Virus record (IMG/VR): IMGVR_UViG_3300050821_003061
Span: 1-62,352 of that record
DNA from: a virus
Reading direction: 5' to 3' (one strand)
Length of the DNA stretch: 62,352 nt
Positions within the stretch are counted from its first letter, which is position 1. Every line of letters starts with the position of its first letter. The notes beneath the pieces are model-generated. The model worked only from the letters and a program-made list of their open reading frames with translations, had not been told where the DNA came from and searched no databases. The translations under genes were made by a program, and so were the position numbers. This document shows, piece after piece, positions 2,515 through 56,030 of the stretch.

Positions 2515-3360
2515 ATGAGAACGGCATTAGTGTTGCTGATTCTACTCAGCACTGCGGCTATCGCACATGCTTACACGATCCAGGGTAGGACGTACGTTTC
2601 CACTTCCGGGACAGACATCAATAACAACTGTACAGTCCAAACAAACCCGTGCAAGACGATCACCCACGCAGTCGCGCAATCCGGTGGTGCAGGCTGGGAC
2701 GTTATCCCTGCGTCCGGCACGTATCATGAGAACGTGGTGGTCGCGAAGTCAGGGAGCGCAGCGGCGCTGCTCAGGATCATTCCGGCATCCGGTTCGCATG
2801 TTTATATTGACGGCACGGGCATGGGTCCGATTGGCATGGACGTTACCGGCAGCTACGTGACGATGATCGGGGGCTATGTCCAGAACTTCTCCGGCGACTG
2901 CATTTATGTGCACGGAGCGGATGCGACTCATCATCAGGTCAATATGCATTTCGATCTTGTCGGCGCGTTGAATTGCGGCGGCTACGTCGTTCATGCCGAG
3001 CACACGGACCTGTTTGATGATGGTTACGGACGCATCTTCAACGGCAAGAAGGGTCCGGTTTATCTTAACGATAGTCCGACGTTTCACATTCACGATCAGA
3101 ACATTTACAATCTGCCACAGGATGGCTATCCTTCTACGATTGGTGCGCTGATCGTCGATAGCGCGAATGGTAGTTTTGAGGGCGTGAACGGGAAGATCAG
3201 CGGCGTCTCGCCGACGCTGGACGCCGAGAGTTCGGCTTATATGTCGATCATCAACAACAATCCACCCGCGCCGTTGTCGAACACTTTTACGTGTGTGATC
3301 AATCCTTCGACGGATCGCGCGACGGATACGATCTCAGGCAACGGGACTGGTTGCCAATAA
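2515..3360 (+). CDS. Secreted beta-helix (pectate-lyase fold) protein, tailspike-like
   Basis: A 281-residue protein with a signal peptide ending AIAHA/Y near residue 19. The mature part begins with 'YVSTSGTDINNNC...NPCKTI', the start typical of DUF1565/parallel beta-helix proteins, and continues with short repeating beta-rungs rich in Gly, Asp and Asn. The fold is common in tailspikes and polysaccharide lyases. No catalytic site can be identified by eye. It follows the repeat-fibre gene at a 21-base gap and probably belongs to the same appendage cassette. Confidence 0.65.
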   Translation: MRTALVLLILLSTAAIAHAYTIQGRTYVSTSGTDINNNCTVQTNPCKTITHAVAQSGGAGWDVIPASGTYHENVVVAKSGSAAALLRIIPASGSHVYIDGTGMGPIGMDVTGSYVTMIGGYVQNFSGDCIYVHGADATHHQVNMHFDLVGALNCGGYVVHAEHTDLFDDGYGRIFNGKKGPVYLNDSPTFHIHDQNIYNLPQDGYPSTIGALIVDSANGSFEGVNGKISGVSPTLDAESSAYMSIINNNPPAPLSNTFTCVINPSTDRATDTISGNGTGCQ

Positions 3361-3822: not shown

Positions 3823-6495
3823 ATGATCCCAACCCTTGCGGGCAACTTTCCGGTCGATGGCTCAGACACAACGACCGCTGGGTTCAGAGGGACGCAAGGA
3901 GGCACGTCTGGCGGCCCAACGTCTTCGAGCGGAGACGAAGACCAGCGCGTGCTGCTCGAACAGGAAGCGCTGCGCGAGGGCAATATGCTGCGTCTCGCGC
4001 AGGAAGCCGAAAGCCAGGGCTCGACTTTCTTTCAAACTGCGGTGCGTTCGTTCTGGGCACGCAACTACCGCGCGTATCGCTCTCAGCACTTCGAGGGATC
4101 GAAATATCTGTCTCAGCGCTTTGCCGGAAGGTCAAAGACCTTCCGCCCCAAAACGCGCGATGCCGTCCGCAAGAAAATGCAAGCCGCCGCAACGGCCCTT
4201 TTCTCGACTGGCGATGTCGTTTCAATCACACCGGAAAACGAAGCCGATCAGGTCCAGGCGGCAAGCGCGGCCCTCAAACAAGAGCTGATAAATTATCGTC
4301 TGTCTCGGGAAACCAAACGGAACGGCATTAAGTGGTTCTTGATTGCCTCCGGTGCCGTCCAGACGATGCAAATCACCGGGGTCTGCGTTTCAAAGCAGTC
4401 ATGGATTTTCAAAGAGGAGAAAACCGACAAGCGCGGCGAGAACGAGCGCCGTAACGAACAGAGTTTTGCTTTGTCCCAAAGCATTCCTCAGGGGCCTGCC
4501 ATGGGGCCTGGAGGAGGTATGCCAGGGGCAAACCCCGGGGGCGTCGCGGCCCCCGGGCCGACCCAAGTTCCAGGGGGAGCGCCTGTTGCTCCGCCGGCGC
4601 CGTCCAGCCCAGCAGGTTTGACGCCGAGCGGCGGTGCTCCTCCTGGACCGCCCCAAGGTCTCAGTAATGGGCCTCAAGCTCCAAGTATGGGGCCTCAAGC
4701 TCCAAGTAGCCCTCCGCCGCCGCCAAATCCGCCAGGTCAATTGCAGGCGTCGATCCAATCGCCGCCGTTCGAGCCGGAGGAGCGGAAAAAGACACGGATC
4801 ATCGTGGACCGGCCGGATATCGACTTAATCGCGCCGGAGAACGTCATCTTCGATCCCAATTGCAATTGGACCGATCCGGCGCAATCGTCACAGTATCTCA
4901 GGATCGCCCGCCCAATGTCCGCGGATGAGGCTTGGCTGCACGTCTCGCGCTCGCAGGGGCAAGATAAAAAAATCCCTTTCCTCGATACGCCGATCGAAGT
5001 CTTCCGATCCGCTGTGTCGCCGACATCCGGGCCTTCCGACAGCATCGCAAGCCGTGTGTCTCGTAACGAGGGCACCGACCCGATTATGATGGTCAGCGGG
5101 ACATTCGGGAGGGTCTGGCTTTACGAATGGTACATGCGGATCGCCGGAGCAGACTACACGTTTTGGACGCTCGGCATACAGCGGATGCTATCGACACCGG
5201 TCTTGACCGCCGATGCCTACCCTGAGCAGGGCGGCGCGCGGCCGGTCGTCATCGGCCTTGGAGCCATTGAGGCGTTCCGCCCCTATCCCATGTCGCCGGT
5301 CGAGAGCTGGCAGCCGCTCCAACTCGAATTGAATGATCAGGTCAATTTGAGATTGGACCATCTCAAGCAATGCATTGCGCCTCCTGCGTTGGTCAAGCGG
5401 GGCGCCGATGTCGATCTCAAGGCGATCCAGAAACGCGGCGCCGATCGCATCATCATGATCACCAACCAGGGCGATGTCGAATGGGCGCAAATCCCCGATA
5501 TCCCGCAATCCGCAGCCCAGCAAGACGCGCAACTGAACAGCGATTTTGACAGTCTTGCCGGCGTCATGAACATGGGGACCGTGCAGACGAACCGGCAGCT
5601 CAATGAGACCGTTGGCGGGATGAACCTGCTCGCCGGGGATGCGTCGTCAACCTCCGAGTTCGACCTGTCGGTCGAAACAGAGACATGGGTTGCCCCCGTC
5701 CTTGAGCAGGTTATGAAGCTTGAGGAATATTACGAGAGCGACGAAACCGTGTTGGCGATTGCCGGCGAAAAGGCGAGACTGTTTCAAAGGTTCGGTATGT
5801 CGGAAATAACCGACAGCCTTCTGACGGCGGAAACAAGCCTTACGATCAAAGTTGGGGTTGGCGCGGCAAATCTGCCGATGCAGCGGTTGCAGAAATTCCA
5901 AATGGCGGCGCAGACCGTTGGGCAAGTGCTTGAACCGTTCGTCGTGGCCGGCGTGATCAAGCCGCCAACTCCAAACGTCGAGGAAATTGTTAACACCGTG
6001 TTCGGTGCGGCAGGCTTCCGCGACGGAGGCGATCGATTCTTTACCGATCTTGGCGGTGCGCAAGACCAGGCGCCGGACCCGAAGGCGCAAGCCATGATGG
6101 CCGAGCAGGACACCAAGAAGCAGGCCAACGTGATCGCCGCGCAGAAGATACAGTCGGACGCGCAAATCAAGCGCGAGGAACTCGCCCAAAAGGATCGCCA
6201 GGACGCGGCGAAGATCGAACTCGAAAGAATGCGCTCGCGTACCGAACTCTCCAAAAACGTGGTCTCTATGGGCCACGATCGCGGCAAGCAAGCCGCCGAT
6301 CACGTCCACAACCTGCACAAGCAGGCACAGGATCATGCGCACCAGGCGCGCACGGCACAAAATTCAGACCTTGCAAAGCTCTTTGGCAACGCCATGAGCG
6401 GCGCGAGTGGAGGCCAGGGTGGTCAGAGCGGCGAGATGCCAGGAGGCACCCCTGCCGCGCCGCCAACGCAGCCTGACATGGTGCCCGCCGCATGA
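3823..6495 (+). CDS. Portal protein
   Basis: An 890-residue protein, in the size range of large podovirus portals. It forms the dodecameric ring at the unique capsid vertex through which DNA is packaged and ejected. An N-terminal helical region (about 40-200) is followed by a Pro/Gly/Gln-rich insert (about 225-320), then the alpha/beta core (about 330-690). A long charged coiled-coil C-terminus (about 740-850) resembles the barrel of P22-type portals. It is followed by the scaffold and capsid genes in the expected order. The Pro-rich insert is odd and may be a surface-exposed linker. Confidence 0.85.
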   Translation: MIPTLAGNFPVDGSDTTTAGFRGTQGGTSGGPTSSSGDEDQRVLLEQEALREGNMLRLAQEAESQGSTFFQTAVRSFWARNYRAYRSQHFEGSKYLSQRFAGRSKTFRPKTRDAVRKKMQAAATALFSTGDVVSITPENEADQVQAASAALKQELINYRLSRETKRNGIKWFLIASGAVQTMQITGVCVSKQSWIFKEEKTDKRGENERRNEQSFALSQSIPQGPAMGPGGGMPGANPGGVAAPGPTQVPGGAPVAPPAPSSPAGLTPSGGAPPGPPQGLSNGPQAPSMGPQAPSSPPPPPNPPGQLQASIQSPPFEPEERKKTRIIVDRPDIDLIAPENVIFDPNCNWTDPAQSSQYLRIARPMSADEAWLHVSRSQGQDKKIPFLDTPIEVFRSAVSPTSGPSDSIASRVSRNEGTDPIMMVSGTFGRVWLYEWYMRIAGADYTFWTLGIQRMLSTPVLTADAYPEQGGARPVVIGLGAIEAFRPYPMSPVESWQPLQLELNDQVNLRLDHLKQCIAPPALVKRGADVDLKAIQKRGADRIIMITNQGDVEWAQIPDIPQSAAQQDAQLNSDFDSLAGVMNMGTVQTNRQLNETVGGMNLLAGDASSTSEFDLSVETETWVAPVLEQVMKLEEYYESDETVLAIAGEKARLFQRFGMSEITDSLLTAETSLTIKVGVGAANLPMQRLQKFQMAAQTVGQVLEPFVVAGVIKPPTPNVEEIVNTVFGAAGFRDGGDRFFTDLGGAQDQAPDPKAQAMMAEQDTKKQANVIAAQKIQSDAQIKREELAQKDRQDAAKIELERMRSRTELSKNVVSMGHDRGKQAADHVHNLHKQAQDHAHQARTAQNSDLAKLFGNAMSGASGGQGGQSGEMPGGTPAAPPTQPDMVPAA

Positions 6496-8750: not shown

Positions 8751-9573
8751 TAACAACTGGCGGAATTAGGAACGTATCGCAAAATGCAGTTCTGCGATGC
8801 TCCCGATGGAGAACAGAAAGGTCTCAATCGTGGAGATTTGTTCCACTGGAATGTTTCGCGAAAAGTGTAGGCATTCCTTAAAGCCTGCTATATGCTGGAA
8901 CAGCTTCAAAAGACCGGCTCTCCTGATCATGGAAGAATGAGCGGTACACGGAGCCAATCAGCAGGAAACCTTAATGGTAAGCGAAGCAGAAATGGGATGG
9001 CTTGCCGGGATTATCGACGGAGAGGGAACGATTGTTCTTTTTGTCGGCTTTAGGAAAGGCGGCAAACTTAACACAGCCTCTCCCCAGGTTATCATCGGCA
9101 ACACGGAAAAGGTAATGATCGAGAAGGTGGCCGATATCTACGGTCGCCTTGGCGTAGGTGTCCATATTTATCACCATGAGCCAAAATCAGCCTGTGGTGT
9201 TCCTGGCCGCGTCTTGTCAAAATACAAGACAATGTATCACGCAAGCGTCGTCGGCTTCCAACGGACACAGAAGCTCCTAACCGTGATTTCTCCATATCTA
9301 ATTACGGTCAAGCGGCAAAAGGCCGAGGCCGTACTTCGCTTCATCGAGCAACGCGGCAAGAAAATCTTCAAGGACGGGAAATTCCGGTGCGGCCAATTCC
9401 AAGGCAGCAAATACGACATCGATGATCTAACTATGATCAGAGATATCGTCGCAAGCGGATCACGATCCAAGAAATTGCCGCTCATCGAAGGGCTCCTCAG
9501 AGACTACACGCAGGCGCGAGACGCACAACCTCGCATGATATAGTCCGAACTCCCGCGAAATCGGGAGAGCGCG
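8751..9573 (+). ncRNA. Group I intron in the major capsid gene
   Basis: The 5' splice site follows T8750. Exon bases 8743-8750 pair perfectly with 8760-8767, with U8750-G8760 wobble (P1). A hairpin ATCGCA/TGCGAT (8776-8781, 8793-8798) suits P2. P4 is formed by TGCTG (8893-8897) and CAGCA (8959-8963), within the conserved P and Q elements. The R element (TCAGAGACTACA, 9497-9508) and S element (GATATAGTCC, about 9537-9546) pair as GACTA/TAGTC in P7. A CTCCCG/CGGGAG hairpin (9550-9555, 9562-9567) fits P9. The 3' end is placed after G9573 because that keeps the capsid frame; G9574 would not. The intron carries a homing endonuclease gene. Confidence 0.85.
8974..9543 (+). CDS. LAGLIDADG homing endonuclease, intron-encoded
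   Basis: A 189-residue protein with the motif LAGIIDGEG at residues 10-18, the metal-binding dodecapeptide of LAGLIDADG enzymes, in a single-motif architecture that should act as a homodimer. It would cut intronless capsid genes at the exon junction and spread the intron by repair. The Shine-Dalgarno sequence (CAGGAAACC) lies inside the Q element, and the TAG stop lies inside the S element, so translation and intron folding must compete. Only this gene separates the two capsid exons. Confidence 0.9.
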   Translation: MVSEAEMGWLAGIIDGEGTIVLFVGFRKGGKLNTASPQVIIGNTEKVMIEKVADIYGRLGVGVHIYHHEPKSACGVPGRVLSKYKTMYHASVVGFQRTQKLLTVISPYLITVKRQKAEAVLRFIEQRGKKIFKDGKFRCGQFQGSKYDIDDLTMIRDIVASGSRSKKLPLIEGLLRDYTQARDAQPRMI

Positions 9574-25468: not shown

Positions 25469-28400
25469 ATGACGGACGCAGCAGCAGCGGACCCGTGGGC
25501 CGGCCTTGCTAATTGGGACCATCCACTCCCTCCCGGCTTTGAATATGTCGATGACAAGAACTATCCCCCGCCTCCGCGCCAAACCTCGGCGCGCAGCGTC
25601 CTAGGCGCCGGAGCATCCGGCATCAACGCCGGCCTTGCGGGAACGCTTGGGCTCCCCGTCGATGTCGCCAACACGGCGCTGCGCGGGGTTGGCCTGCAAA
25701 CCAACCCAGCCCCGATCATGGGCTCGGCATGGCTGCGCGGAATCGAGCGCAGCGTCGGGATCAATCCCGATCTCGCGTCCGACGCGACGACGGCCGAGAA
25801 GATCGCCCACGCTGGCGGTTATGGCGCGGCGGCCGCAACCGTGCCAGCCGCGGGCGTTGGGCTTGCCGGCGAGGCTGGTGCACTCACCGGACCGGCCTTA
25901 GAGACGGCGCAGGCGATTACCGGTGCACCGACCGCCACGACAGCAGGATTGGGCGCCGTAGCCGGCGCGGCCGGCGGGGCCGCCGCCGAAGCGGCGCCGA
26001 AGGGATTTGAGACAGCGGCTTCACTCGCTGCTCAATTGGCGGCCGGACACGGCTTTGGGAAAGGGGTATCGAGCCTTACCTCGACACCCCCCCCAAGCGA
26101 TATCGAGCAGTTCCTGAACGAGGCTGACGTTGCCTCGGCGCGCGCGGCCGGCGCAAAGACGCGGGTAGAGATCGATGAATTTATCCGAAACAAAGAGGCT
26201 GGTACGACGGCCGCCCTCCCGGCTCCTGCAAGCATGGTGGGAGAGGGTGCCCCCGCGAATGCGCCTCATGTCGCAGAGCCTCCACAAGCCGAAGCGCAAG
26301 CTCCTCCCAACATTGTGGCCCCCGAGAATGCGCCTCCTGTCGCAGAGCAAGCCGGAGCCGCTCAGGCCGGAACTCGCCAAGCGCCCGTCAAGGTACAAGC
26401 CCCCGACGAAATCGAGCCTGCTCGCAATGTGGCGGACACTGCACCTTCGCCTGCTCAATCCGAGGCCGGTAACTATCAGAAGGGCCACGCGAATTTCGAC
26501 GGGTTGCCCGTCACGATCGAAAATCCAAAGGGTTCGATCAGATCAGGCACCGATCCGAATGGCACGCCATGGAGTTCCGTCCTTCCGGCGGACTACGGCT
26601 ACGTAAAAGGCTCGGTTGGCAAGGACGGCGATCATGTCGATATTTTCCTCGGCGACAAGGGGCCGAACGGAAAAGCCTTCGTCATCGACCAGAACGACCC
26701 AGCGACCGGTAAGTTCGACGAGCACAAGATCGTCGCTGGCGTCGATAACGTAGCAGAAGCGGCGCAAATCTACCATGGCGCCTTCCAGGATGGCTCCGCG
26801 CCGCAGCGCATCGGCGGAATTACCGAAGTTCCGATTGATCAGCTCAAAACCTGGCTCGCGAGCGGGCCGGTAAAGAAGCCGTTCGCCAAACCGGCTCCGC
26901 TACCGGAGGGGTTCGTTCCTTACACTGGTTTTGAAGATGGGACCGACCGGCCGGTCACTGCAACAAAACCCGCGCAAAATATTCCTGAAAATATTACCGC
27001 GGGCCTGACGGCGGAACAGGAAGCCGTCGTCACATCGCACCTAAAAGCATCGGGACTCACGCAGGCCGATATCGGCCAATTGTGGCCGCTTGGCCTCCGT
27101 CCGATCGATATCGATCCGCAGGCCGCTGCCGCTGCCAAGCAGCATGAGGCGGCGGGCGCGCCGCCGGACACAGCGTACGAGAGAGCCGTCATCGAGGCGG
27201 CGCTCGCCGATCCGAAAGTTCAAGGTATTAACGATGGCGAACAGCTCCCCGCTGCCCCCGAACCAATACAAAGTTCTGTTGCGACGGCTCCAGAGCCTCG
27301 CCCGCCTGTCGCGGGGGCCGGACCAGTTACGCTACCAGCGCTGGGCAAAAGCCCTGCTCCTGGCGCACCGGAAACGGCACCCACAAGCCTAACAGACGCC
27401 GCCGGGCGCCAGCATGTTCTCGATACATCGCAGCCATCGGACGCGATCGCGAAGCATCTCCTGGAAAAAGGTTCTCTTTCCAGAGAAGACGCCGCAAAGC
27501 TCACCGGCCACAATCTCAGCGATCCGAACCAGCTAAAGGCTTTCGAGGAAAATGTCGAGCTTGGCGTCGTCAAGGCCGCGCGGCACATCATTAGGGCAAT
27601 AGCCCAACCGGAAGTCTTCGACCGGCTCGTCAAACTCTACGGCGATCAGCCCAAGCTCGGCACACGAACCTCGACCTCGATGCGCGATCAGGCGTACAGC
27701 ACGCCCATACCGCTGGCCTATGCCGCTTCGAGGCTTTCCGGTGTCGCGCCGGACAAAACTGTTTACGAGCCGTCCGCGGGCAACGGTGCGCTTTTGATCG
27801 AGGCGCACGCCGTCGATACCGTCGCCAATGAATTGAATCCTGGACGGCTAAATGCATTGAAAAGCCAAGGCTTCCTTGCTATGAACAAGGATGCCTCGAA
27901 ACCAACTACAGCCGAAGCGGCGGTCAAGCAAAACGATGGTCCGTTCGATATTGTATTGCTCAATCCTCCTTTTGGAGTGCGTCACGGCGAAGGTGGTGCA
28001 GGGGACCGTTTTGACCTATCGCGTTTCCAGCCTGGCTATGAGACTGGCGAGATCGATCATGCTATCGCGCTGAACTCGCTTGCCGCGATGAAGCCGGACG
28101 GGCGCGCCGTCCTGATCCTCGGCGGCCCATCGCCACTTGCGAAATCGGACGAGGCCCGCACCAAGGCTTACGGAGCGAAGGCCAAGCGCGAGTTTTACAA
28201 GACCCTTTACGATAAGTTCAACGTCGATGGACATTTCACGGTCTCCGGCGACCTCTACGAAAAGCAGGGCGCCGGCTGGCCGGTTGATGTAATTACGATT
28301 TCGGGAGCCGGAAAGTCCGCGCTCCTCTACCCTATGATGACCGCGCCCCCCATGTTGAATACGTGGGCCGCAGTGAAGGAGAAGGCTCTTGCCGAGCAAC

Positions 28401-31400
28401 CAAGCCATCCGCAGCCAGTTAGCGAGCCACGCGGCGAAGCTCATGCACCGAGTCCCACAGTCGGAGCGCCCGGACATGATATTGAGGATCAACCGCTCAA
28501 TGGCGGACTCGGGAATGCTGGACCCCCTAATCGACCCGAAGGCGAACCCGGAGCACTTCGGCCAACAGGCGTTCCTCAACAACATGAGCATCGAGAACCA
28601 TCTGCCGCACCTGAACCTACCGAACATCCTGTGCGCGGAGAACCCGGAGGACATGGCCAACCGCGTCCTACCGAACGACGGCCACCTGGAGTAGAGAACC
28701 GCATTTCGGCTGTCCTTGGCGATCTTGCAAACTATGATGGCAATCGCGTGTACCTATCGACGGTGCGCGCCGCGCTTTCTGACTTGCCACGCGCCGAGCA
28801 AGACGCTGCGATCAAGAGCTATGCGGCCAGCCACGACGTTGGGCTTTATCCAAACGACAATAGGATAACAATTACGCAAGATCAGCGCGACAACGCCGTT
28901 CACATCGGCAATGAGCCTCGACATTTCTTTTTTGTTGGGAACCCACCACCGCCACGCCATGCCGCGCCAGCACGCCAACCGCGCGCGGCTCCGGCGCCCC
29001 CTTCGCAGCCAGAAGCGCCGAAGGAAGCCGAAACCGAAAATCAGGTCGCATACTCGCCAAAGTCCACGGCAGGCACCAAACTTGGCACCCTCGCCCCCCG
29101 CAATATGCGTGACGCTTCTGACGCCGCTCTCGCCAGCGTGGAAAGCCGGCATGGCCCAATCGCCAAATACGTCTCAAGCGAGCTTGGCTACAAAGCCGCC
29201 GATCTTGGCAAGCATTACTCGGCCGAGCAGGTTGACGCTCTCGGCCTCGCAATCGACAACATCGAGCGCGGCGGATCGTTGATCCTCGGCGATCAGACCG
29301 GCATCGGCAAGGGCCGCGTCCTCGCTGGGCTCATTCGGTATGGCCTGCGCAAGCGTATGACGCCGATCTTCGTTACCGAGAAGGCAAACCTCTATGCCGC
29401 CATGTTCGACGACATGACGGACATCGGTATGACGGACATGCTCGGCCGCGAGCCCCGCATTCTACCCACCGACAGCAACTTGAAGCTCCCGATCGGCAGC
29501 CAAGGAACAATTCTGAAAACGCCGGACGGTCCAGAGCAGGAGAAGCAACTTCGCGATGTCGCCGCCAATGGCAAGTTGCCCGATCACGACATGATCATGA
29601 CCACCTACTCGCAAATGCAGACGGTCAAGGGCCAAGACACGGCGCGCCGTGGATTTCTGCGGTTGATGGCACCGAATGCCATCATCCTTTTCGACGAGAG
29701 CCACAATGCCGGCGGCGCGGCAGTCGAGAAGCGCATTGCTAAGGGTAAACCACCGCCGCCGCCAGACCGCGCCGAATTCGCCCGCGAGCTCGTTCAGAAG
29801 GCCAAGGCCGTAGTCTATTCCTCGGCGACCTACGCCAAGCGGCCGGACAGCATGCGGCTCTATTCGAAGACCGACATGCGCTACGCCGTCGCCGACATGA
29901 AGGACCTCGGCGAAGCGATCAAAAAGGGCGGCGTGCCGATGCAGCAAGTCGTTGCATCCGCGCTTGCCGAAAGCGGCCAGTATCTTCGCCGCGAACGATC
30001 CTTCGACGGTATCAAGTACGATATGGAAGTGACGCCGATCGATCGCGCGCTCTACAGCGGGTTCTCCAAGGCGCTGCGGGCGATCAACGATTTCTCGAAG
30101 AAAGCCGGGAAATCCGTCAAAGACATCGACAAGGAAGTCAAGGCCGAGGCGGCAATCGCCGGCCAGGACGCCTCGGTTGGGGCGGCTGGCGCGGAAAGCA
30201 CGAATTTTACCTCCCTCATGCACAACGTTGTCTCGCAGTTCCTGCTCGCCTCGAAGGCGGAGCGCGCGGGCCAGCTTGCGGTCGAGGCGATCAACAGAGG
30301 GGAGAGGCCGGTCATCGCCGTCGCGAACACGCTGGAAAGCTTCGTGTCTGACTATATGGAGCAGACTGGCGCGAAGACCGGCGATCTCATCAGGGCGAGC
30401 TTCGGCGATCTTCTCTCACGCTACCTCGATCGCTCGCGTGTCGTGACGATCAAGAAGCCGTTCGGCGCCGTGACCGACAAGCACACGATGACCGACGAGG
30501 AACTAGGACCCGAAGGGCTGGCGGCCTACCATGCCGCGCAAGCCGTCATCAACGGTCTGGATTTCGGCAAACTCCCGATTTCCCCGATCGACAAAATCCG
30601 CCAGGTGATTTCGCAAGCCGGCCATGCGGTTTCCGAGATCACCGGGCGCAACAATGTGCTCGATTACGGCAAAGGCAACATTCCGCAGATCGGCACGCGA
30701 TCCGGGAAGGAAAGGTCCGTCGCTGGGCGTACGCAGACGGTAAAGGATTTCAATTCAGGAAAGTTGAAAGCGCTAATTCTCAATGAAAGCGGTGCGACCG
30801 GCATATCGCTCCACGACAGCGAGGCGTTCCCGGAAAGCGGACGCGGCCAGCGGGCCATGATCATCGCCCAGGCGCATCCGAACATTGACACGCACATGCA
30901 AATGCTCGGGCGCGTCAACCGCACCGGCCAGGTATCCAAACCGCGCTATGCCCAGCTCGGCGCCGATGTCGCGGCGGAAAAGCGGCCGATGGCCGTGCTC
31001 GCCAAGAAACTCGCCTCCCTCAACGCCAATACGACGGCGAGCGCGAAGAGTGGACTTTCCGGCAAAGGAGCGGTCGATTTCCTGAACCGCTACGGCGATG
31101 AAGTGGTAACGCAGGTCATGCTGGATGACATGCGGGCTCATATCGACATGGGCGAGCCGCTCAAGGAGTCGCTCAGTCCAACAGAACCGATGGAGGACGC
31201 CGCGCGCCGGGCGACCGGCCGCATCGCGTTCCTGGAACCGGATATCCAGGACCGTATCATGGACGCGATCGAGAGCCAGTATAAGGCCAAGATCGACGAT
31301 CTCGACGAGCGCGGAGAAAACGCGCTTGAGGCGAAGCACCTTGACTTACAGGCCAAATACGAGGGTGGCGCGGACATCTCTCAAAAGACCGGCGATAGCC

Positions 31401-32449
31401 CCTTCCAAGACGCCGTGCATGTCGGCACCTACGACGTAAAGAGCGACCGCAAGCCGCCGAAATTCGACGACGTGATGAAATCGGCCTATGCGATGCTCGG
31501 GCGCGAGATCGTTCCGAAATATGCGCCGCTCGAAGCGCTGCAAACGGCTGGCGGGAAGACAGTCTCAGCGATGATGACCCGCGCCGATCAGGCGTTCGCC
31601 GAGTACAAGAGCGCGATGCGAGCGATTACCAAAGACCCGGATATCGCGGCAGAGCAAGCCAATCGATTGGCGGACGGCAGAGAGGCAATGCGGGCCAAGC
31701 TCGCCGTCGTCTATCCTGGCTCAATTTTGCATCTCGACGAGAACGATCAAGTCCCGCTGCCCTATGCGATTGTGATGGTGGTGAAACACGAGGGAAAGGC
31801 GCTCAATCCTTATGCGCCGTCGAGTTGGCAGGCCACGATGGCATTCCCCGGTTACGGCATGAGAACGGTTCCGTTTTCGCAGTTGGGAACGAGGGAAACC
31901 GCCGAACCGGATGCGATGCAGGTAGCGCCAGCATCTATGAAACCGGATGAACTCGCCAAGATGTTCGACAGCTTCAAGAGCGAGCTTCGCGAAAAGCGGG
32001 TGATCGCCACGGGCAATCTACTTACGGCCTTCGATCTCCTACGCCATGCTGGCCAGATCGCGCATTTCACGATGGACGACGGCACGGTTCGCCAGGGCAT
32101 CATTCTCCCGCGCAAGCAGACCTCATTCAAGGACGTTGCCGGCGGGGCCGTCAAGAAACTTCGAGAGCCGAGCGACATCATCAAATTTCTGGAGAAACCC
32201 GGGGGAACCGCGGTTTCCGCGGATGGAGCGATCACGATAAGCCGCCTATATGGCGGCTTTCTTATTTCCGTCGTTGGCGCGCGATCCATAGGCGGAAAAT
32301 ACTTCCTCGATCCCGGCGTTCTTGAGGCGCTAGGCCGTGACGAATTCATCAAACGCGGCAGCGAAATGCGTGCGTCTGCGCCCCCCGACAGAGCCACGGC
32401 TGTCTTCGAGGCCCTGATCAAAGCCGGCGCGAATTTCCAGCAGAAGTAA
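25469..32449 (+). CDS. Giant polyvalent protein: InPase-like, N6-methylase and SBNO-type helicase
   Basis: A 2326-residue protein. The leader DPWAGLANWD (8-17) matches the ejection protein at 21157. An InPase-like domain spans about 338-470 (IENPKGSIRSG...GKDGDHVDIFLG...FDEHKIV). An N6-adenine methylase follows with EPSAGNGA (767-774) and NPPF (832-835). A Strawberry-notch-like SF2 helicase has GDQTGIGKGR (1274-1283), DESH (1409-1412) and MLGRVNRTGQ (about 1812-1821). This is the architecture of phage polyvalent proteins related to P1 DarB, injected with DNA to protect it from host restriction. The Pro/Gly linker at about 974-1075 overlaps another gene. Confidence 0.85.
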   Translation: MTDAAAADPWAGLANWDHPLPPGFEYVDDKNYPPPPRQTSARSVLGAGASGINAGLAGTLGLPVDVANTALRGVGLQTNPAPIMGSAWLRGIERSVGINPDLASDATTAEKIAHAGGYGAAAATVPAAGVGLAGEAGALTGPALETAQAITGAPTATTAGLGAVAGAAGGAAAEAAPKGFETAASLAAQLAAGHGFGKGVSSLTSTPPPSDIEQFLNEADVASARAAGAKTRVEIDEFIRNKEAGTTAALPAPASMVGEGAPANAPHVAEPPQAEAQAPPNIVAPENAPPVAEQAGAAQAGTRQAPVKVQAPDEIEPARNVADTAPSPAQSEAGNYQKGHANFDGLPVTIENPKGSIRSGTDPNGTPWSSVLPADYGYVKGSVGKDGDHVDIFLGDKGPNGKAFVIDQNDPATGKFDEHKIVAGVDNVAEAAQIYHGAFQDGSAPQRIGGITEVPIDQLKTWLASGPVKKPFAKPAPLPEGFVPYTGFEDGTDRPVTATKPAQNIPENITAGLTAEQEAVVTSHLKASGLTQADIGQLWPLGLRPIDIDPQAAAAAKQHEAAGAPPDTAYERAVIEAALADPKVQGINDGEQLPAAPEPIQSSVATAPEPRPPVAGAGPVTLPALGKSPAPGAPETAPTSLTDAAGRQHVLDTSQPSDAIAKHLLEKGSLSREDAAKLTGHNLSDPNQLKAFEENVELGVVKAARHIIRAIAQPEVFDRLVKLYGDQPKLGTRTSTSMRDQAYSTPIPLAYAASRLSGVAPDKTVYEPSAGNGALLIEAHAVDTVANELNPGRLNALKSQGFLAMNKDASKPTTAEAAVKQNDGPFDIVLLNPPFGVRHGEGGAGDRFDLSRFQPGYETGEIDHAIALNSLAAMKPDGRAVLILGGPSPLAKSDEARTKAYGAKAKREFYKTLYDKFNVDGHFTVSGDLYEKQGAGWPVDVITISGAGKSALLYPMMTAPPMLNTWAAVKEKALAEQPSHPQPVSEPRGEAHAPSPTVGAPGHDIEDQPLNGGLGNAGPPNRPEGEPGALRPTGVPQQHEHREPSAAPEPTEHPVRGEPGGHGQPRPTERRPPGVENRISAVLGDLANYDGNRVYLSTVRAALSDLPRAEQDAAIKSYAASHDVGLYPNDNRITITQDQRDNAVHIGNEPRHFFFVGNPPPPRHAAPARQPRAAPAPPSQPEAPKEAETENQVAYSPKSTAGTKLGTLAPRNMRDASDAALASVESRHGPIAKYVSSELGYKAADLGKHYSAEQVDALGLAIDNIERGGSLILGDQTGIGKGRVLAGLIRYGLRKRMTPIFVTEKANLYAAMFDDMTDIGMTDMLGREPRILPTDSNLKLPIGSQGTILKTPDGPEQEKQLRDVAANGKLPDHDMIMTTYSQMQTVKGQDTARRGFLRLMAPNAIILFDESHNAGGAAVEKRIAKGKPPPPPDRAEFARELVQKAKAVVYSSATYAKRPDSMRLYSKTDMRYAVADMKDLGEAIKKGGVPMQQVVASALAESGQYLRRERSFDGIKYDMEVTPIDRALYSGFSKALRAINDFSKKAGKSVKDIDKEVKAEAAIAGQDASVGAAGAESTNFTSLMHNVVSQFLLASKAERAGQLAVEAINRGERPVIAVANTLESFVSDYMEQTGAKTGDLIRASFGDLLSRYLDRSRVVTIKKPFGAVTDKHTMTDEELGPEGLAAYHAAQAVINGLDFGKLPISPIDKIRQVISQAGHAVSEITGRNNVLDYGKGNIPQIGTRSGKERSVAGRTQTVKDFNSGKLKALILNESGATGISLHDSEAFPESGRGQRAMIIAQAHPNIDTHMQMLGRVNRTGQVSKPRYAQLGADVAAEKRPMAVLAKKLASLNANTTASAKSGLSGKGAVDFLNRYGDEVVTQVMLDDMRAHIDMGEPLKESLSPTEPMEDAARRATGRIAFLEPDIQDRIMDAIESQYKAKIDDLDERGENALEAKHLDLQAKYEGGADISQKTGDSPFQDAVHVGTYDVKSDRKPPKFDDVMKSAYAMLGREIVPKYAPLEALQTAGGKTVSAMMTRADQAFAEYKSAMRAITKDPDIAAEQANRLADGREAMRAKLAVVYPGSILHLDENDQVPLPYAIVMVVKHEGKALNPYAPSSWQATMAFPGYGMRTVPFSQLGTRETAEPDAMQVAPASMKPDELAKMFDSFKSELREKRVIATGNLLTAFDLLRHAGQIAHFTMDDGTVRQGIILPRKQTSFKDVAGGAVKKLREPSDIIKFLEKPGGTAVSADGAITISRLYGGFLISVVGARSIGGKYFLDPGVLEALGRDEFIKRGSEMRASAPPDRATAVFEALIKAGANFQQK
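28389..28694 (+). CDS. Probable nested gene inside the polyvalent gene, other frame
   Basis: A 101-residue ORF in the +1 frame with a TTG start. AAGGAG (28376-28381) lies seven bases before it. Of its 101 codons, about 89 end in G or C, like genuine genes here, whereas the polyvalent frame over the same bases has mostly A/T third positions and reads as a Pro/Gly/His-rich linker. The predicted protein has ordinary composition (LASHAAKLMHRVPQSERPDM...NLPNILCAENPEDMA). An overprinted gene is the simplest reading; two compensating frameshifts in the big gene are the alternative. No function is known. Confidence 0.6.
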   Translation: MPSNQAIRSQLASHAAKLMHRVPQSERPDMILRINRSMADSGMLDPLIDPKANPEHFGQQAFLNNMSIENHLPHLNLPNILCAENPEDMANRVLPNDGHLE

Positions 32450-32516: not shown

Positions 32517-34361
32517 ATGACCGAAATGATCATGATCTCAACCACGCCGCCACAGGTCGGACAGACCCTTACGGCGACGGGCGGCAGCGGCGGCTATCAG
32601 TGGTACAACGAGGGGTCTGCGATATCCGGCGCGACTTCCGCCACCTATACGCTTCAAAACAGCGATATCGGTTGCCTGATAAGCGTCGAGAGCGCGAGCG
32701 GCGTTTTCAGCTCGCTCGTTGGGCCAGTGCTTGGGTCAACTGTCCGCTACGTCAGCATGACGGATGGGCTCGATACCAACGACGGCACGACCTCGATTCC
32801 CGGGGCTCCACACGGCCCATGGAAAACGCTCGCGCATGTGAATGCGCAAACGTTCGCGGCAGGCACGTCGATCTTGTTCAAGCGCGGCGACACATGGCGC
32901 ACAGATGGGAACGCCGGCAATTCCCTCGGTGCGCAGCTGCGCCCGCCATCGAGTGGCACGGCCGGTAATCCAATCGTATTTGACGCTTATGGGACCGGCG
33001 CAAATCCGATCATCGATGGATCATGGGACGCAAGCCAAACAAGCCAATGGACGCTCACCACGACCTCCAACGTCTGGCAGAGCAATCAACAATTTTCGCC
33101 GGCAACTGGTAACGGGCTTCCCAACAACCAGGCAAACGACGTCGGAAATATCCTTTGGGGGTTTTCTCCTATAGGCGGAACTAATGTTCCACCTGCTTTA
33201 CAAAACGCCAGTTTTGGACAAATGAGGGGAGGAGGAGCAGGCGGAATTTTCTATAAAGCGGGCGACGCTCAGGCAAACATTGGAACGACACAAGGAAATT
33301 GGAATTTCAATACTGATAATTTCAGGGTGCAAATTTATTCAACATCGAACCCTGCCACGGCAATGCCCGGCCTAAGTCTCGCGATCGACACCGCTTGTAT
33401 TTACATCGTCGGACAGAGTTATTTAATATTCCAAAACCTGACCCTGAATAATTGCGGTATGTCGCCGATCATGTCTCAACAAGCCGGGACAACCGGGGCG
33501 AATAATATCATCATCCGTGATTGCGTCATTCAATGGTATGGCGGCGGAAATCAAAATGGCGGCAACATCGTCAGGTTTGGCGACGGTATCGATATCGAGG
33601 GCAGTGCGCAACACTGGCTGATCGAGCGTATTTGGTTTTATCAAGGATGGGATATTTGCGTCGGGCCTCAATGCGGCGGAGCGCATCAGGATGATATCAC
33701 CGTACGCAATTGTGTTTGCACAAAGACCGGTGGGTTCTTTGTTACCTTTATTTTTGGCACTCCAACTACGGTAGGTTTAAAGCTGTATAACAATACATGC
33801 TATTGCGCGCCAGATAGTTGGTCCGTTAATCAAAGATCAAACGGAAATGCAAATAACCTTGGTCTTTTCCTTGGAGCCCTAGCTCAAACCAGCATGATCA
33901 TAGAGAACAATATCTTTGCTGGCATCGGTGGGCAAGGTACGAACCCCGGCTTTGGCATTAATGGCGCGGGAGCACATTGGAGTACAACCGGTAACTATGC
34001 AAATCCGTTCAACTATATGTGGCTAGACTATAATTTCTGGCCGAAAAATACAGAGACCGGCAACTCGCAGCAGATCGCTCTCACCGTACCGGGGGGGGGC
34101 GGGAACTTCAATCTGAAGGATTGGGTCAAGGGCGTTAACACTCCTACCGGGGCGGGAACCTTCACTCCTGCCCTTGAGGTGCACGGCATATTCGATCAAG
34201 ACCCGCTGTACACGAATCAGGGGGCGCTCAATTTCGTTCTTCAAACAGGCTCGCCCTGCCGCAACGCTGGGCTGAACCTCTATAGCGCTGGCGTGGTCTG
34301 GGACATCAACAAGAACCCCCGCCCGGCTACCGGGGCCTTTTCGATGGGCGCGTTCCAATGA
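32517..34361 (+). CDS. Tailspike candidate: Ig-like head and parallel beta-helix
   Basis: A 614-residue protein. Residues 8-72 form an Ig-like module ('PPQVGQTLTATGGSGGYQWY...'). From residue 77, 'RYVSMTDGLDTNDGTT...GPWKTLAHVN' begins a right-handed beta-helix, with many short rungs ('LIFQNLTLNNCGMSP', 'NIIIRDCVIQWYGGG', 'LIERIWFYQGW'). The fold is usual for capsule- or LPS-degrading tailspikes. Asp-rich turns near residue 360 could be catalytic, but this cannot be settled by eye. A ribosome binding site GAAAGGA precedes it. The centre is AT-richer than the flanks. Confidence 0.75.
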   Translation: MTEMIMISTTPPQVGQTLTATGGSGGYQWYNEGSAISGATSATYTLQNSDIGCLISVESASGVFSSLVGPVLGSTVRYVSMTDGLDTNDGTTSIPGAPHGPWKTLAHVNAQTFAAGTSILFKRGDTWRTDGNAGNSLGAQLRPPSSGTAGNPIVFDAYGTGANPIIDGSWDASQTSQWTLTTTSNVWQSNQQFSPATGNGLPNNQANDVGNILWGFSPIGGTNVPPALQNASFGQMRGGGAGGIFYKAGDAQANIGTTQGNWNFNTDNFRVQIYSTSNPATAMPGLSLAIDTACIYIVGQSYLIFQNLTLNNCGMSPIMSQQAGTTGANNIIIRDCVIQWYGGGNQNGGNIVRFGDGIDIEGSAQHWLIERIWFYQGWDICVGPQCGGAHQDDITVRNCVCTKTGGFFVTFIFGTPTTVGLKLYNNTCYCAPDSWSVNQRSNGNANNLGLFLGALAQTSMIIENNIFAGIGGQGTNPGFGINGAGAHWSTTGNYANPFNYMWLDYNFWPKNTETGNSQQIALTVPGGGGNFNLKDWVKGVNTPTGAGTFTPALEVHGIFDQDPLYTNQGALNFVLQTGSPCRNAGLNLYSAGVVWDINKNPRPATGAFSMGAFQ

Positions 34362-34435
34362 CCCGGGAAGAACACTTTCTCCAGTGGATTATCGTTCTTG
34401 ATGCCGCGCTGTTCATCCTTTGGATAGTTACATGA
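34358..34435 (+). CDS. Tiny membrane protein before the lysis gene
   Basis: A 25-residue protein (MTREEHFLQW...) that is nearly all one hydrophobic helix. It overlaps the tailspike stop and the endolysin start by ATGA at both ends. It might influence lysis, given its place, but this is only inference. Confidence 0.55.
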   Translation: MTREEHFLQWIIVLDAALFILWIVT

Positions 34436-35556
34436 CGACGGTCCATGTCACTGCGCCGATGCTCGCGGCGTACAACCATTTCCTTGCAGTCGGCTTCACG
34501 GAAAACGGCGCGGCGGCCCCGGTCGGAAACGGCTGCCAGGAAAGCGGCGAGTTCCTGGTCGCCACAATGTTCCGCGCGCATCCCGACTGGTCCGGCGGTG
34601 TCCCTGAGGCTTTGAAGTCCGGCGGCTTCGAGGAATGGATGGGCGATCGAAAGACCGCCTGCATTGCGTTCATCGGACGGGCGGAAACCCGGCTCGGCGT
34701 CGCCAAGGGATCGCTTTTGAATGATTTAGGAACGCAGTGCGATTTCGTGGTTTACGAACTCCAGACCAACCCGAGATATCTCACCCTCTACAGGCAATTG
34801 ACCACCGGATCGCGGTCGATAACGAACCTTACCGCGAACTTCATGGCGATCTATGAGGTTCCGGCGCTCAGGACCGCCAATTTGGACAATCGGATAGCCC
34901 ATGCCGAGGCGGTGGCGGCGCGGGCGAGAGAAATGAAAGCGGCCGTTCCAGTGCCTCAGCCGCGCGCGCCCGCAACCGTTCCGCAAGCGGCGGCACCGGA
35001 GGCGCCGATACCAGTTCCCACGGCCCCAGCGTCTCCGCCCAGCCTCCCCACGATATCACCGCCCGCGGCCGGCAGGATCACCGCCGTTCTCGACAATCTC
35101 ATGGCGCTGCATACGACCTATCTCGCCGAGCGCGCGTCTATTGACGCGGAAATCGCCATCCTCGAAACAACTATCGCAGATTTTGGAAAATTGCAGGGAG
35201 CGGCGCCGAATCCGATTCCTCCACTTTTGCAGAAACCGGCCGCCAAACCGGCGGTAACACCACAACCACAAGGAAACCCAATAATGAATCCGCAAGTTTT
35301 GGCAACAATTAGGTCCATTCTCCTGGCCTTCGGCGGCGCCGCTGTCAGCAAAGGCGTAATCGATGAATCCACGATGACGAGTTTGGTTGGTGGTGCGACC
35401 GCCGCAGCATCATTTGGATGGTCGTTATGGACCCACAGCACGACCAATACCATCGCCGCGGCTGCTTCTCTGCCGGAGGTCCAAAAGATCGTGACAACTC
35501 CGGCGATCGCTAATTCTCCGAAGTTCGCCGCGAACGACACGGTCGTAGCCCACTAA
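34432..35556 (+). CDS. Endolysin-holin fusion protein
   Basis: A 374-residue protein. Residues 1-165 resemble phage tail lysozyme-type muramidases: 'FTENGAAAPVGNGCQESG' with E37 as likely catalytic acid, then 'GGFEEWMGDRK' and 'ANFMAIYEVPA'. A Pro/Ala linker (170-230) and a helical stretch follow. The last 90 residues ('NPQVLATIRSILLAFGGAAVSKGVID...FGWSLWTH') match Pam3-gp28-type holins. Muramidase and holin are usually separate genes. An internal ATG at 35284 with AGGA upstream may release the holin alone. The start at 34432 overlaps the preceding stop (ATGA). Confidence 0.75.
   Translation: MTTVHVTAPMLAAYNHFLAVGFTENGAAAPVGNGCQESGEFLVATMFRAHPDWSGGVPEALKSGGFEEWMGDRKTACIAFIGRAETRLGVAKGSLLNDLGTQCDFVVYELQTNPRYLTLYRQLTTGSRSITNLTANFMAIYEVPALRTANLDNRIAHAEAVAARAREMKAAVPVPQPRAPATVPQAAAPEAPIPVPTAPASPPSLPTISPPAAGRITAVLDNLMALHTTYLAERASIDAEIAILETTIADFGKLQGAAPNPIPPLLQKPAAKPAVTPQPQGNPIMNPQVLATIRSILLAFGGAAVSKGVIDESTMTSLVGGATAAASFGWSLWTHSTTNTIAAAASLPEVQKIVTTPAIANSPKFAANDTVVAH
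35284..35556 (+). CDS. Possible free holin from an internal start
   Basis: In frame with the endolysin fusion. The ATG (codon 285) is preceded by AGGA at 35271-35274, a nine-base spacing. The product (90 residues, MNPQVLATIRSI...) would be a complete Pam3-gp28-like holin with one or two membrane segments. In-frame nested starts are known for other lysis genes. Proof requires detection of both proteins. Confidence 0.5.
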   Translation: MNPQVLATIRSILLAFGGAAVSKGVIDESTMTSLVGGATAAASFGWSLWTHSTTNTIAAAASLPEVQKIVTTPAIANSPKFAANDTVVAH

Positions 35557-35940
35557 ATGAACGACGAAGACTTCAAACAGACCGTTCTCGATTATTTCGG
35601 GATGGTCGCACCACGGAGGCACGAGGAAATTATGGCTACACTAGCAGATATCAAAGCGCAGAACGAGGCAAACGGCAAAGCACTCGACGGCAAGATCACC
35701 GCAATTGCGGCAGCGCAAGCGGCCCATCACGCGGCGGTCGATAAGGCGCTCGCCGATCTGGCGGCAACCGGCGCGGCAGGTCATTCTGCCGTACTCGATG
35801 AGATCGCCGCCGACAACTCTGCCATGGCGAAGAAGATCGACGCCATCGACGCGCCGACAACGATGGCGGCAATGACGGATGAGATTGTCAAAGCCATTGG
35901 CGCGAACCCGACGCCATCCCTATCCACGCCCCCCGCATGA
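35557..35940 (+). CDS. Helical hypothetical protein in the lysis region
   Basis: A 127-residue Ala-rich, probably coiled-coil protein starting MNDEDFKQTVLDYFG. It directly follows the lysis fusion stop with no gap. No membrane segment is seen, so it is not an obvious spanin. Function unknown. Confidence 0.6.
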   Translation: MNDEDFKQTVLDYFGMVAPRRHEEIMATLADIKAQNEANGKALDGKITAIAAAQAAHHAAVDKALADLAATGAAGHSAVLDEIAADNSAMAKKIDAIDAPTTMAAMTDEIVKAIGANPTPSLSTPPA

Positions 35941-36677: not shown

Positions 36678-36854
36678 ATGCCAATCGGAATGATTTTCTG
36701 GATGCTGATGATTCTGTGGTTTTTCTTCGGAATCGCATGGAACTCGAATTCGACGATGTTCGGGACATGGGGTCTATGGGGCAACTGGCTCTTGCTGTTC
36801 GTCCTGTTCTTCATCCTCGGCTGGAAAGAGTTCGGCTTCGTGGTTCACGGCTGA
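36678..36854 (+). CDS. Two-span hydrophobic small protein
   Basis: A 58-residue Trp/Phe-rich protein with two hydrophobic helices separated by a Gly/Asn/Ser turn, beginning MPIGMIFWML. AGGAG lies eight bases upstream. Size and topology are compatible with an antiholin or small holin. Confidence 0.6.
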   Translation: MPIGMIFWMLMILWFFFGIAWNSNSTMFGTWGLWGNWLLLFVLFFILGWKEFGFVVHG

Positions 36855-37416: not shown

Positions 37417-37812
37417 ATGGGTGAAAGCGGCTATCTCATCATCGCGGCAATCATCGGCCTCTTTGGGAATATCATCGCAACGGTCGGCGCCTCCTTTTTA
37501 AATCAGCGGGCCAACAGGAAGGCTCAGGAGGCCGCACGCGATGCGGCAGAGGCCGCCGCAAAGGCGCAAATCGCGACGGAGCACGCAGCTCGCGATGCGG
37601 CCAATGCGGCGCGGGCGCTGGTCGAGGCGGCGAAGACGACCGATGCGCGATTGACCGGCCTCCAAAAATCGGCCGATGAAAATATGGACGTGACCCGAGG
37701 AACCCACACGATCGTCAACAGCCAGCGAACGGCGATGGAGGAACAAATTGATGCACTGAAAGGGACTGTGGCCGGTCTCGTCAAGAAACTGGAAAAATTA
37801 CAGGGACCTTAG
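37417..37812 (+). CDS. Membrane-anchored coiled-coil protein (spanin-like topology)
   Basis: A 131-residue protein: hydrophobic segment at 6-28 (LIIAAIIGLFGNIIATVGAS), then a long Ala/Glu/Lys-rich coiled coil with an Arg-rich start. One N-terminal span plus periplasmic coiled coil is the layout of inner-membrane spanins, but no outer-membrane partner with a lipobox was found nearby, so this remains a suggestion. It has its own promoter region upstream. Confidence 0.55.
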   Translation: MGESGYLIIAAIIGLFGNIIATVGASFLNQRANRKAQEAARDAAEAAAKAQIATEHAARDAANAARALVEAAKTTDARLTGLQKSADENMDVTRGTHTIVNSQRTAMEEQIDALKGTVAGLVKKLEKLQGP

Positions 37813-55052: not shown

Positions 55053-56030
55053 ATGGACCTGTCCGGCAACGACCTCGACAACGTAACGAGGACGATTCTT
55101 GCCGAGGCTGGCCAAAATGCCACACCTGCGTCGATGGCCGCGGTCGCGAGCGTCATTCGTAATCGCCTCGCGGCGGGCGGTTATGGGAACACTCCATCCG
55201 CGATCGTCCACGCGCCAAATCAGTTTGAGCCGTGGAACCCGAATTCCGGCAACGATCCCAGCCGGTTCGATCAGAACAGCCCGGCGTACAAGCAAGCGGC
55301 GGCGCTCGCGCAAGGCGTGTTCAGCGGCGTCGTCAACGATCCAACCGCCGGGGCGACGCATTTTTTCGCCCCGGCGGCGCAGGCGGCGTTAGGCCGTTCG
55401 CGGCCGACATGGGCAGGATCACCACCTACCGCGGAGATCGGCGGCCATCAGTTCTTTGCCCCATCTGGTCCAGTTACCGCCGACGCCATCGGGGCGGTCA
55501 GCGCTACTCCTGGCTACGCTCCTGGCGGTCCTGAGACGGCAACGCCGTATTCCGGTCCCGGCAGCCAGCCCACACCGCAAAACGCCCCGCCGATCACAGT
55601 CCCGCCGACAGGGCAAACGCAACTCGCCGCGCTGCTCGCCGGGATGAAGGGCTCGCAGCCACAAGGCGGCGGCGGTGGCGGCGGCCTGCTCGGCAACCTT
55701 TTGTTCGGCCGGCAAGGCATCATGGGATTGCTTCCGCAGCAAATTCAGCAAAGCGGCCTTGTGGGCTCAGCCATAAATGGGCTGGGAAGCGTGCTGAGAG
55801 GCGGCGCCGGAGGGAATGCTCCAATTCCTCCGGCGCCCCAACAAACGGCGCAGGCGCCTGCCGCTGCCCAGGCGCCTGGCATTATTCCGGGTCAACGCGA
55901 TCCGCATCAACCAGGATTTGACGCTGGTTCGGTGCCATACCTCGGCAAGACCGCGGACGCTGGCCAACCGCCGCCGATTGCGGGTCTTCTCGCGCAACTG
56001 TTCGGAAGTCAACAGGCGTCGGCAGCATAG
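55053..56030 (+). CDS. SleB-type cell-wall hydrolase
   Basis: A 325-residue protein. Residues 8-130 match Hydrolase_2/SleB: 'TRTILAEAGQNATPASMAAVASVIRNRL', 'QFEPW', 'GVVNDPTAGATHFFAP', 'RPTWAG'. The catalytic Glu is E18. The rest is Pro/Gln/Gly-rich and disordered. It is probably a virion-associated hydrolase that opens peptidoglycan for DNA entry. Its place between the terminase subunits is unusual. Confidence 0.75.
   Translation: MDLSGNDLDNVTRTILAEAGQNATPASMAAVASVIRNRLAAGGYGNTPSAIVHAPNQFEPWNPNSGNDPSRFDQNSPAYKQAAALAQGVFSGVVNDPTAGATHFFAPAAQAALGRSRPTWAGSPPTAEIGGHQFFAPSGPVTADAIGAVSATPGYAPGGPETATPYSGPGSQPTPQNAPPITVPPTGQTQLAALLAGMKGSQPQGGGGGGGLLGNLLFGRQGIMGLLPQQIQQSGLVGSAINGLGSVLRGGAGGNAPIPPAPQQTAQAPAAAQAPGIIPGQRDPHQPGFDAGSVPYLGKTADAGQPPPIAGLLAQLFGSQQASAA

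Follow-up and report, generated by a model that had tools for sequence, protein, structure and literature searches.

Phage lysis is commonly taught as the work of two separate proteins, an endolysin that waits in the cytoplasm and a holin that opens the door for it. Two products from one lysis gene have been described among holins, where the S105/S107 and S21-68/S21-71 pairs each use two in-frame starts and the longer, N-terminally extended forms (S107 and S21-71) are antiholins that poison holin oligomers (PMC9636201). Their extensions are two to three residues long and carry no enzyme domain (PMC9636201). Among enzymes, the available parts of the reports on mycobacteriophage Ms6 lysA/lysA241 and on iTSS endolysins such as Ply2638A describe an in-frame internal start that yields a C-terminal short isoform beside the full lysin, and in Ms6 the loss of either lysA isoform alters lysis timing; there, the short product is an enzyme or wall-binding domain and not a holin (PMC3111421, PMC12203907).

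A natural holin–endolysin fusion from Clostridium sporogenes (WP_163247266.1) likewise joins both functions in one polypeptide, and in the available part of that report it is discussed as support for non-lytic transport (PMC9527704). However, its holin is N-terminal, belongs to the TpeE family and has one TM helix, and the same part of the report describes no internal start for a free holin (PMC9527704). Among the papers examined in our search for natural endolysin–holin fusions, with limited coverage of subscription journals, only this holin-first protein and engineered ones turned up. Finally, gp28 of Pseudanabaena phage Pam3 (ON014755.1) is a PF23987 holin encoded by a separate gene 13 nt behind gp27, the gene for a lytic enzyme with PG_binding_1 and Peptidase_M15_4 domains rather than a lysozyme. 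It was the only match when a phage collection was searched with the holin module presented below.

The locus described here lies in IMG/VR record IMGVR_UViG_3300050821_003061, the whole of which (62,352 nucleotides; hereafter ‘the window’) was analysed. By its genes (SU10-type portal and adaptor, terminase and integrase), the window appears to represent a temperate podovirus-like phage. We judge it probable that a single lysis gene of this phage yields two proteins, a membrane-anchored muramidase and a free holin. In the literature searched, we found no description of a fusion that places the enzyme first and also keeps a conserved internal start from which the holin could be made alone.

The fusion gene and its relatives

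The gene and its parts are as follows.
34432..35556, + strand: lysozyme–linker–holin fusion ORF of 374 aa, from ATG 34432 to a TAA ending at 35556, with no internal stop.
34462..34917, + strand: PF18013 Phage_lysozyme2 domain, residues 11-162, by profile match.
34540-34542, + strand: probable catalytic Glu, E37, in GNGCQESG, by alignment.
34918..35283, + strand: Pro/Ala-rich linker with a predicted helix (about residues 210-255), common to all six fusions, including one with a different lysozyme.
35270-35274, + strand: AAGGA, predicted Shine-Dalgarno (SD) sequence of the internal holin start, with a 9-nt spacer to ATG 35284.
35284..35556, + strand: predicted free holin of 90 aa, PF23987 Pam3 gp28 family, by profile match; its first Met aligns with M1 of Pam3 gp28.

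The initial annotation had proposed that an endolysin and a holin are fused in one protein, consisting of a tail-lysozyme-like domain, a linker and a Pam3-gp28-like holin. This architecture is borne out, given that the single 374-aa frame matches both PF18013 (E 4.8e-14, 53.2 bits, Pfam cut-off 28.2) and, at residues 286-334, PF23987 (Phage_holin_10, ‘Pam3 gp28 family’; 3.6e-13, 49.7 bits, cut-off 27), and that the modules are fused in six of six loci. The linker of approximately 120 aa between the two domains is first Pro/Ala-rich and then predicted to be helical. Residue E37 is invariant across the five PF18013 members of the alignment, and in a two-step alignment it pairs with a Glu of a staphylococcal tail lysin that itself pairs with E45 of phi29 gp13 (3csq), which we take to be the catalytic Glu of that enzyme. 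With this probable catalytic residue conserved, ‘muramidase’ seems a reasonable label for the N-terminal domain. AlphaFold2 models had low confidence, with a mean pLDDT of 37.6 (whole protein) or 48.6 (lysozyme domain), and the lysozyme alignment had no direct match among PDB sequences.

Searches of viral contigs revealed five further fusion loci (L002, L003, L005, L007 and L008), each a single open frame. Because the same fusion occurs in six separate records, an assembly error is an unlikely source of it. Four of the five relatives combine a PF18013 lysozyme with a different C-terminal two-helix module, of the NWKTT...AKDGNVTGG type, which we term a holin only from its two TM helices and its position behind endolysins. 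The fifth, L003, carries a linker and holin of the window type (holin 91% identical) and a PF00959 lysozyme instead. Given that lysozyme and holin-like modules swap between loci, the linker can be regarded as a shared core with both ends exchangeable. The layout of the C. sporogenes protein, with an N-terminal TpeE holin, was not encountered, the holin being C-terminal here and of the PF23987 or NWKTT type.

The gene type belongs to a small group of soil-type phages. Genome contigs scanned with the lysozyme alignment gave 88 pattern matches and no relative, and viral contigs searched with the linker and lysozyme alignments gave no further members. The L003 lysozyme as query gave a single weak match (L085) and no further clear member. 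A full-fusion profile run class-wide over 385 genomes gave three weak matches, which on inspection were unrelated proteins.

A probable internal start for the holin

Ratios of nonsynonymous to synonymous change (dN/dS) were computed on pairs with unsaturated synonymous divergence. The PF18013 lysozyme is the most conserved part (0.07-0.11, where computable), the holin gives 0.13 in one close pair (the window and L003), and the linker, at 0.19-0.46, is under purifying selection. Several indels separate the linkers of each pair, all of them frame-preserving. Because the linker is under purifying selection and admits only in-frame indels, we infer that the full fusion is translated, with ribosomes reading through the junction, since otherwise the frame of the linker would not be kept. 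Conceivably, this long product is a precursor from which a host protease, by cutting the linker, releases an ordinary free endolysin and a free holin. The Pro/Ala-rich composition of the linker and its weaker constraint relative to the lysozyme domain would suit such processing, but no cleavage motif was identified, and the helical segment (AERA...AEIA) is kept in nearly all members. We consider this route distinctly unlikely.

Within the translated fusion, ATG 35284 is codon 285. An in-frame ATG at this position with AGGA nine bases upstream had been pointed out in the initial annotation, and it is indeed preceded by AAGGA at a spacing of 9 nt. The junction of all six loci contains an in-frame ATG with AAGGA upstream and a spacer of 8-9 nt. 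When an SD match is scored as at least 5 nt with a spacer of 5-10, every one of the six junction ATGs has a match, compared with 0 of the 39 other internal ATGs in the same six genes. By the same measure, matches precede 3 of 239 internal in-frame ATGs of 31 window genes and 3 of the 31 window gene starts.

The motif is read as CAA GGA in the window, L003 and L007, as GAA AGG in L002, and as CAA AGG in L005 and L008, and thus lies in phase 1 in three loci and in phase 2 in three. Because it sits in two codon registers, the nucleotides, and not the peptide, appear to be conserved. Recoding the unchanged peptide before the Met at phage codon usage created an SD of this kind in 5-9% of trials at each locus, and random linker octapeptides gave one in 1%; given that the six loci are relatives and not six independent trials, the per-locus odds were not multiplied into one probability. 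In the five loci whose gene starts with ATG, predicted SD pairing is stronger at the internal ATG than at the gene’s own ATG or, in L008, essentially tied. Compared with most of the gene, the mRNA in the vicinity of the internal ATG has less structure (best 3-15%), and GC3 is reduced in this region. In the only close pair, the synonymous sites next to the start had no significant extra conservation (Fisher p 0.18).

Free relatives, namely Pam3 gp28 and the holin of the split pair in L018, begin by alignment exactly at the Met equivalent to the internal ATG (M285). In L018 and L019 (both IMG/VR), a PF18013 lysozyme with a Pro-rich tail precedes an NWQTT holin. As in the window, the holin ATG lies at the junction with an SD (here AGGAG) inside the end of the lysozyme gene, but a lysozyme stop codon is present, and it overlaps the holin ATG as ATGA such that the two genes are in different frames. 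Since these records carry the split form, the fusion is most simply viewed as an in-frame version of such a coupled gene pair.

Loci from Bosea contain free PF23987 genes that begin at the equivalent Met and have their own AGGAG. Among the 385 genomes searched with the full fusion, two scored above the PF23987 cut-off, with every copy free-standing; one sub-threshold match was an unrelated membrane protein, and matches in Novosphingobium and Sphingomonas look spurious. The four fusions aside, NWKTT-type modules look free in the approximately 40 loci inspected. Several of the free genes examined lie behind a gene for a PF18013, PF00959, glucosaminidase, GH25, CHAP-like or M15 enzyme, a placement that favours a function in lysis for this module type. 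Separately, L028 encodes (2675-3199) a free lysozyme whose YWDVN..RIG.GSDT motif resembles that in the L003 lysozyme, located upstream of a free NWRTN holin-like gene.

The split relatives (L018, L019 and Pam3) also readily explain how the internal site could have arisen, through loss of a stop codon or a change of frame. The ATG and its SD might accordingly be left over from a holin gene that was once separate, with only the fusion being made and working. Decay would then be expected, yet every copy keeps AAGGA, the 8-9 nt spacer and the ATG, in two registers, despite synonymous divergence of the fusion genes that is mostly around or above one per site, and a mere relic strikes us as very improbable. 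A functional internal holin start is well supported by the comparison of the six loci, and very probably lets a free holin also be made. Of the earlier proposal that one gene gives both a tethered muramidase and a free holin, the internal start is thus strengthened by this comparison, and the muramidase half continues to lean on the conserved Glu.

Neighbouring genes and the role of the long product

Three further genes of the window are relevant to the function of the fusion.
34358..34435, + strand: single-TM mini-ORF of 25 aa (MTREEHFLQWIIVLDAALFILWIVT), TM score 2.31, with ATGA overlaps with the preceding gene and with the fusion start.
35557..35940, + strand: 127-aa gene that starts directly at the fusion stop (TAAATG).
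55053..56030, + strand: second cell-wall hydrolase, PF07486 Hydrolase_2, just upstream of the terminase gene.

Because ATGA overlaps occur on both sides of the mini-ORF and the fusion stop is joined to the next start as TAAATG, the mini-ORF, the fusion and the next gene read as a putative coupled lysis operon. An ORF of 20-90 aa with a single TM segment ends at or beside the fusion start in six of six loci, versus 3.2% of random positions and 2 of 30 other gene starts. The sequences of these ORFs are unlike one another (L002 3742-3993, L003 3489-3626, L005 2891-3001, L007 2852-2995 and L008 2840-3001). The mini-ORF is possibly a coupling leader or peptide, a small membrane lysis regulator, an antiholin or a spanin-like protein. 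By inspection, an ORF resembling the 127-aa gene comes after the fusion in all six loci; in L007, an ORF that by eye is HNH-endonuclease-like (4059-4550) is inserted between the fusion gene and this conserved downstream gene.

Other window genes merit mention. Just downstream of the fusion are genes for a 58-aa protein with two strong TM segments (36678-36854) and for a protein with a TM segment and a long helical part (37417-37812) that could be an inner-membrane spanin. Elsewhere, a 2326-aa polyvalent protein (25469-32449) combines inorganic pyrophosphatase, methyltransferase-like and Strawberry-notch helicase parts (DarB-like), and a LAGLIDADG-like endonuclease ORF (8974-9543; E 6.6e-5) lies amid structural genes.

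Since the phage also encodes the PF07486 hydrolase, the fusion need not be its sole endolysin, and this candidate may be an alternative or additional muralytic enzyme. Of the five related records, L003 has a PF07486 match; none was found in the remaining four, which may include fragments. The second hydrolase could be the endolysin, and the fused enzyme could instead be a virion tail lysozyme for DNA entry, with the holin module anchoring it or aiding membrane penetration. The fusion gene does come after a beta-helix, tail-like gene, and tape-measure or tail lysins account for most occurrences of PF18013 and of the phage proteins closest to the L003 lysozyme. However, the C-terminal module belongs to a holin family, and free genes of both holin types follow diverse endolysins. 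A tail protein would have little use for an internal start that yields free holin, and in L018 the PF18013 lysozyme has its own gene, coupled to one for a holin-like protein. A virion role consequently appears quite improbable.

The main rival to a lysis enzyme is a long product that acts mainly as an antiholin-like regulator, whose large cytoplasmic N-terminal domain blocks rearrangement of the first helix and poisons free-holin oligomers, with the ratio of starts setting the timing and any enzyme activity perhaps secondary. Holins with two starts and an N-terminally extended antiholin form are well established (PMC9636201), and the two-product layout is the same here. The helices of the window holin are also weakly hydrophobic: one lies above a simple hydropathy threshold and TM2 below it, whereas L003 and Pam3 gp28 have at least two above. 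Against this, conservation within the protein is strongest in the lysozyme domain, the probable catalytic Glu is kept, and L003 has swapped in another lysozyme rather than any bulky domain; because of these three features, enzyme activity itself appears to be selected. We regard a mainly regulatory long form as unlikely, although an antiholin-like role is compatible with enzyme activity.

A candidate mechanism for lysis

For an anchored muramidase made together with a free holin, we envisage the following. Initiation at 34432 would give the 374-aa lysozyme–linker–holin protein, and independent, AAGGA-directed initiation at 35284 would give a free 90-aa holin identical to the C-terminal end of the fusion. 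Given that the internal SD is the stronger, the free holin is expected to be in excess of the fusion. The holin module would probably adopt a two-helix, N-in/C-in (class II-like) topology, because positive residues follow helix 2 in Pam3 gp28 and related modules. In this arrangement the lysozyme would wait at the cytoplasmic side of the membrane, held in oligomers shared with the free holin, and on the opening of a membrane lesion it could reach the wall via the long linker. We infer both products, the excess of free holin, co-assembly, topology and the lysis role from sequence comparison, and a muramidase tied in this way might have difficulty in reaching all of the wall.

More tentatively, and with somewhat less than even confidence, these loci may define a class of self-timed lysis genes in which a muramidase is tethered in mixed holin oligomers, the ratio of starts sets the time of lysis, and modules are exchangeable around a conserved linker and start. 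The ‘clock’ element, whereby the start ratio sets lysis timing, is offered as a hypothesis.

If this reading is true, the enzyme is tied to the holin while the holin is also made alone, which would fix both stoichiometry and location. Point mutations could then ask whether holin lesions must be of a size that frees the endolysin or merely expose a tethered one. The loci would also illustrate how a lysis locus can change between two split, coupled genes and a fusion in which the internal ribosome-binding site is retained, with two lysis functions packed into one reading frame.
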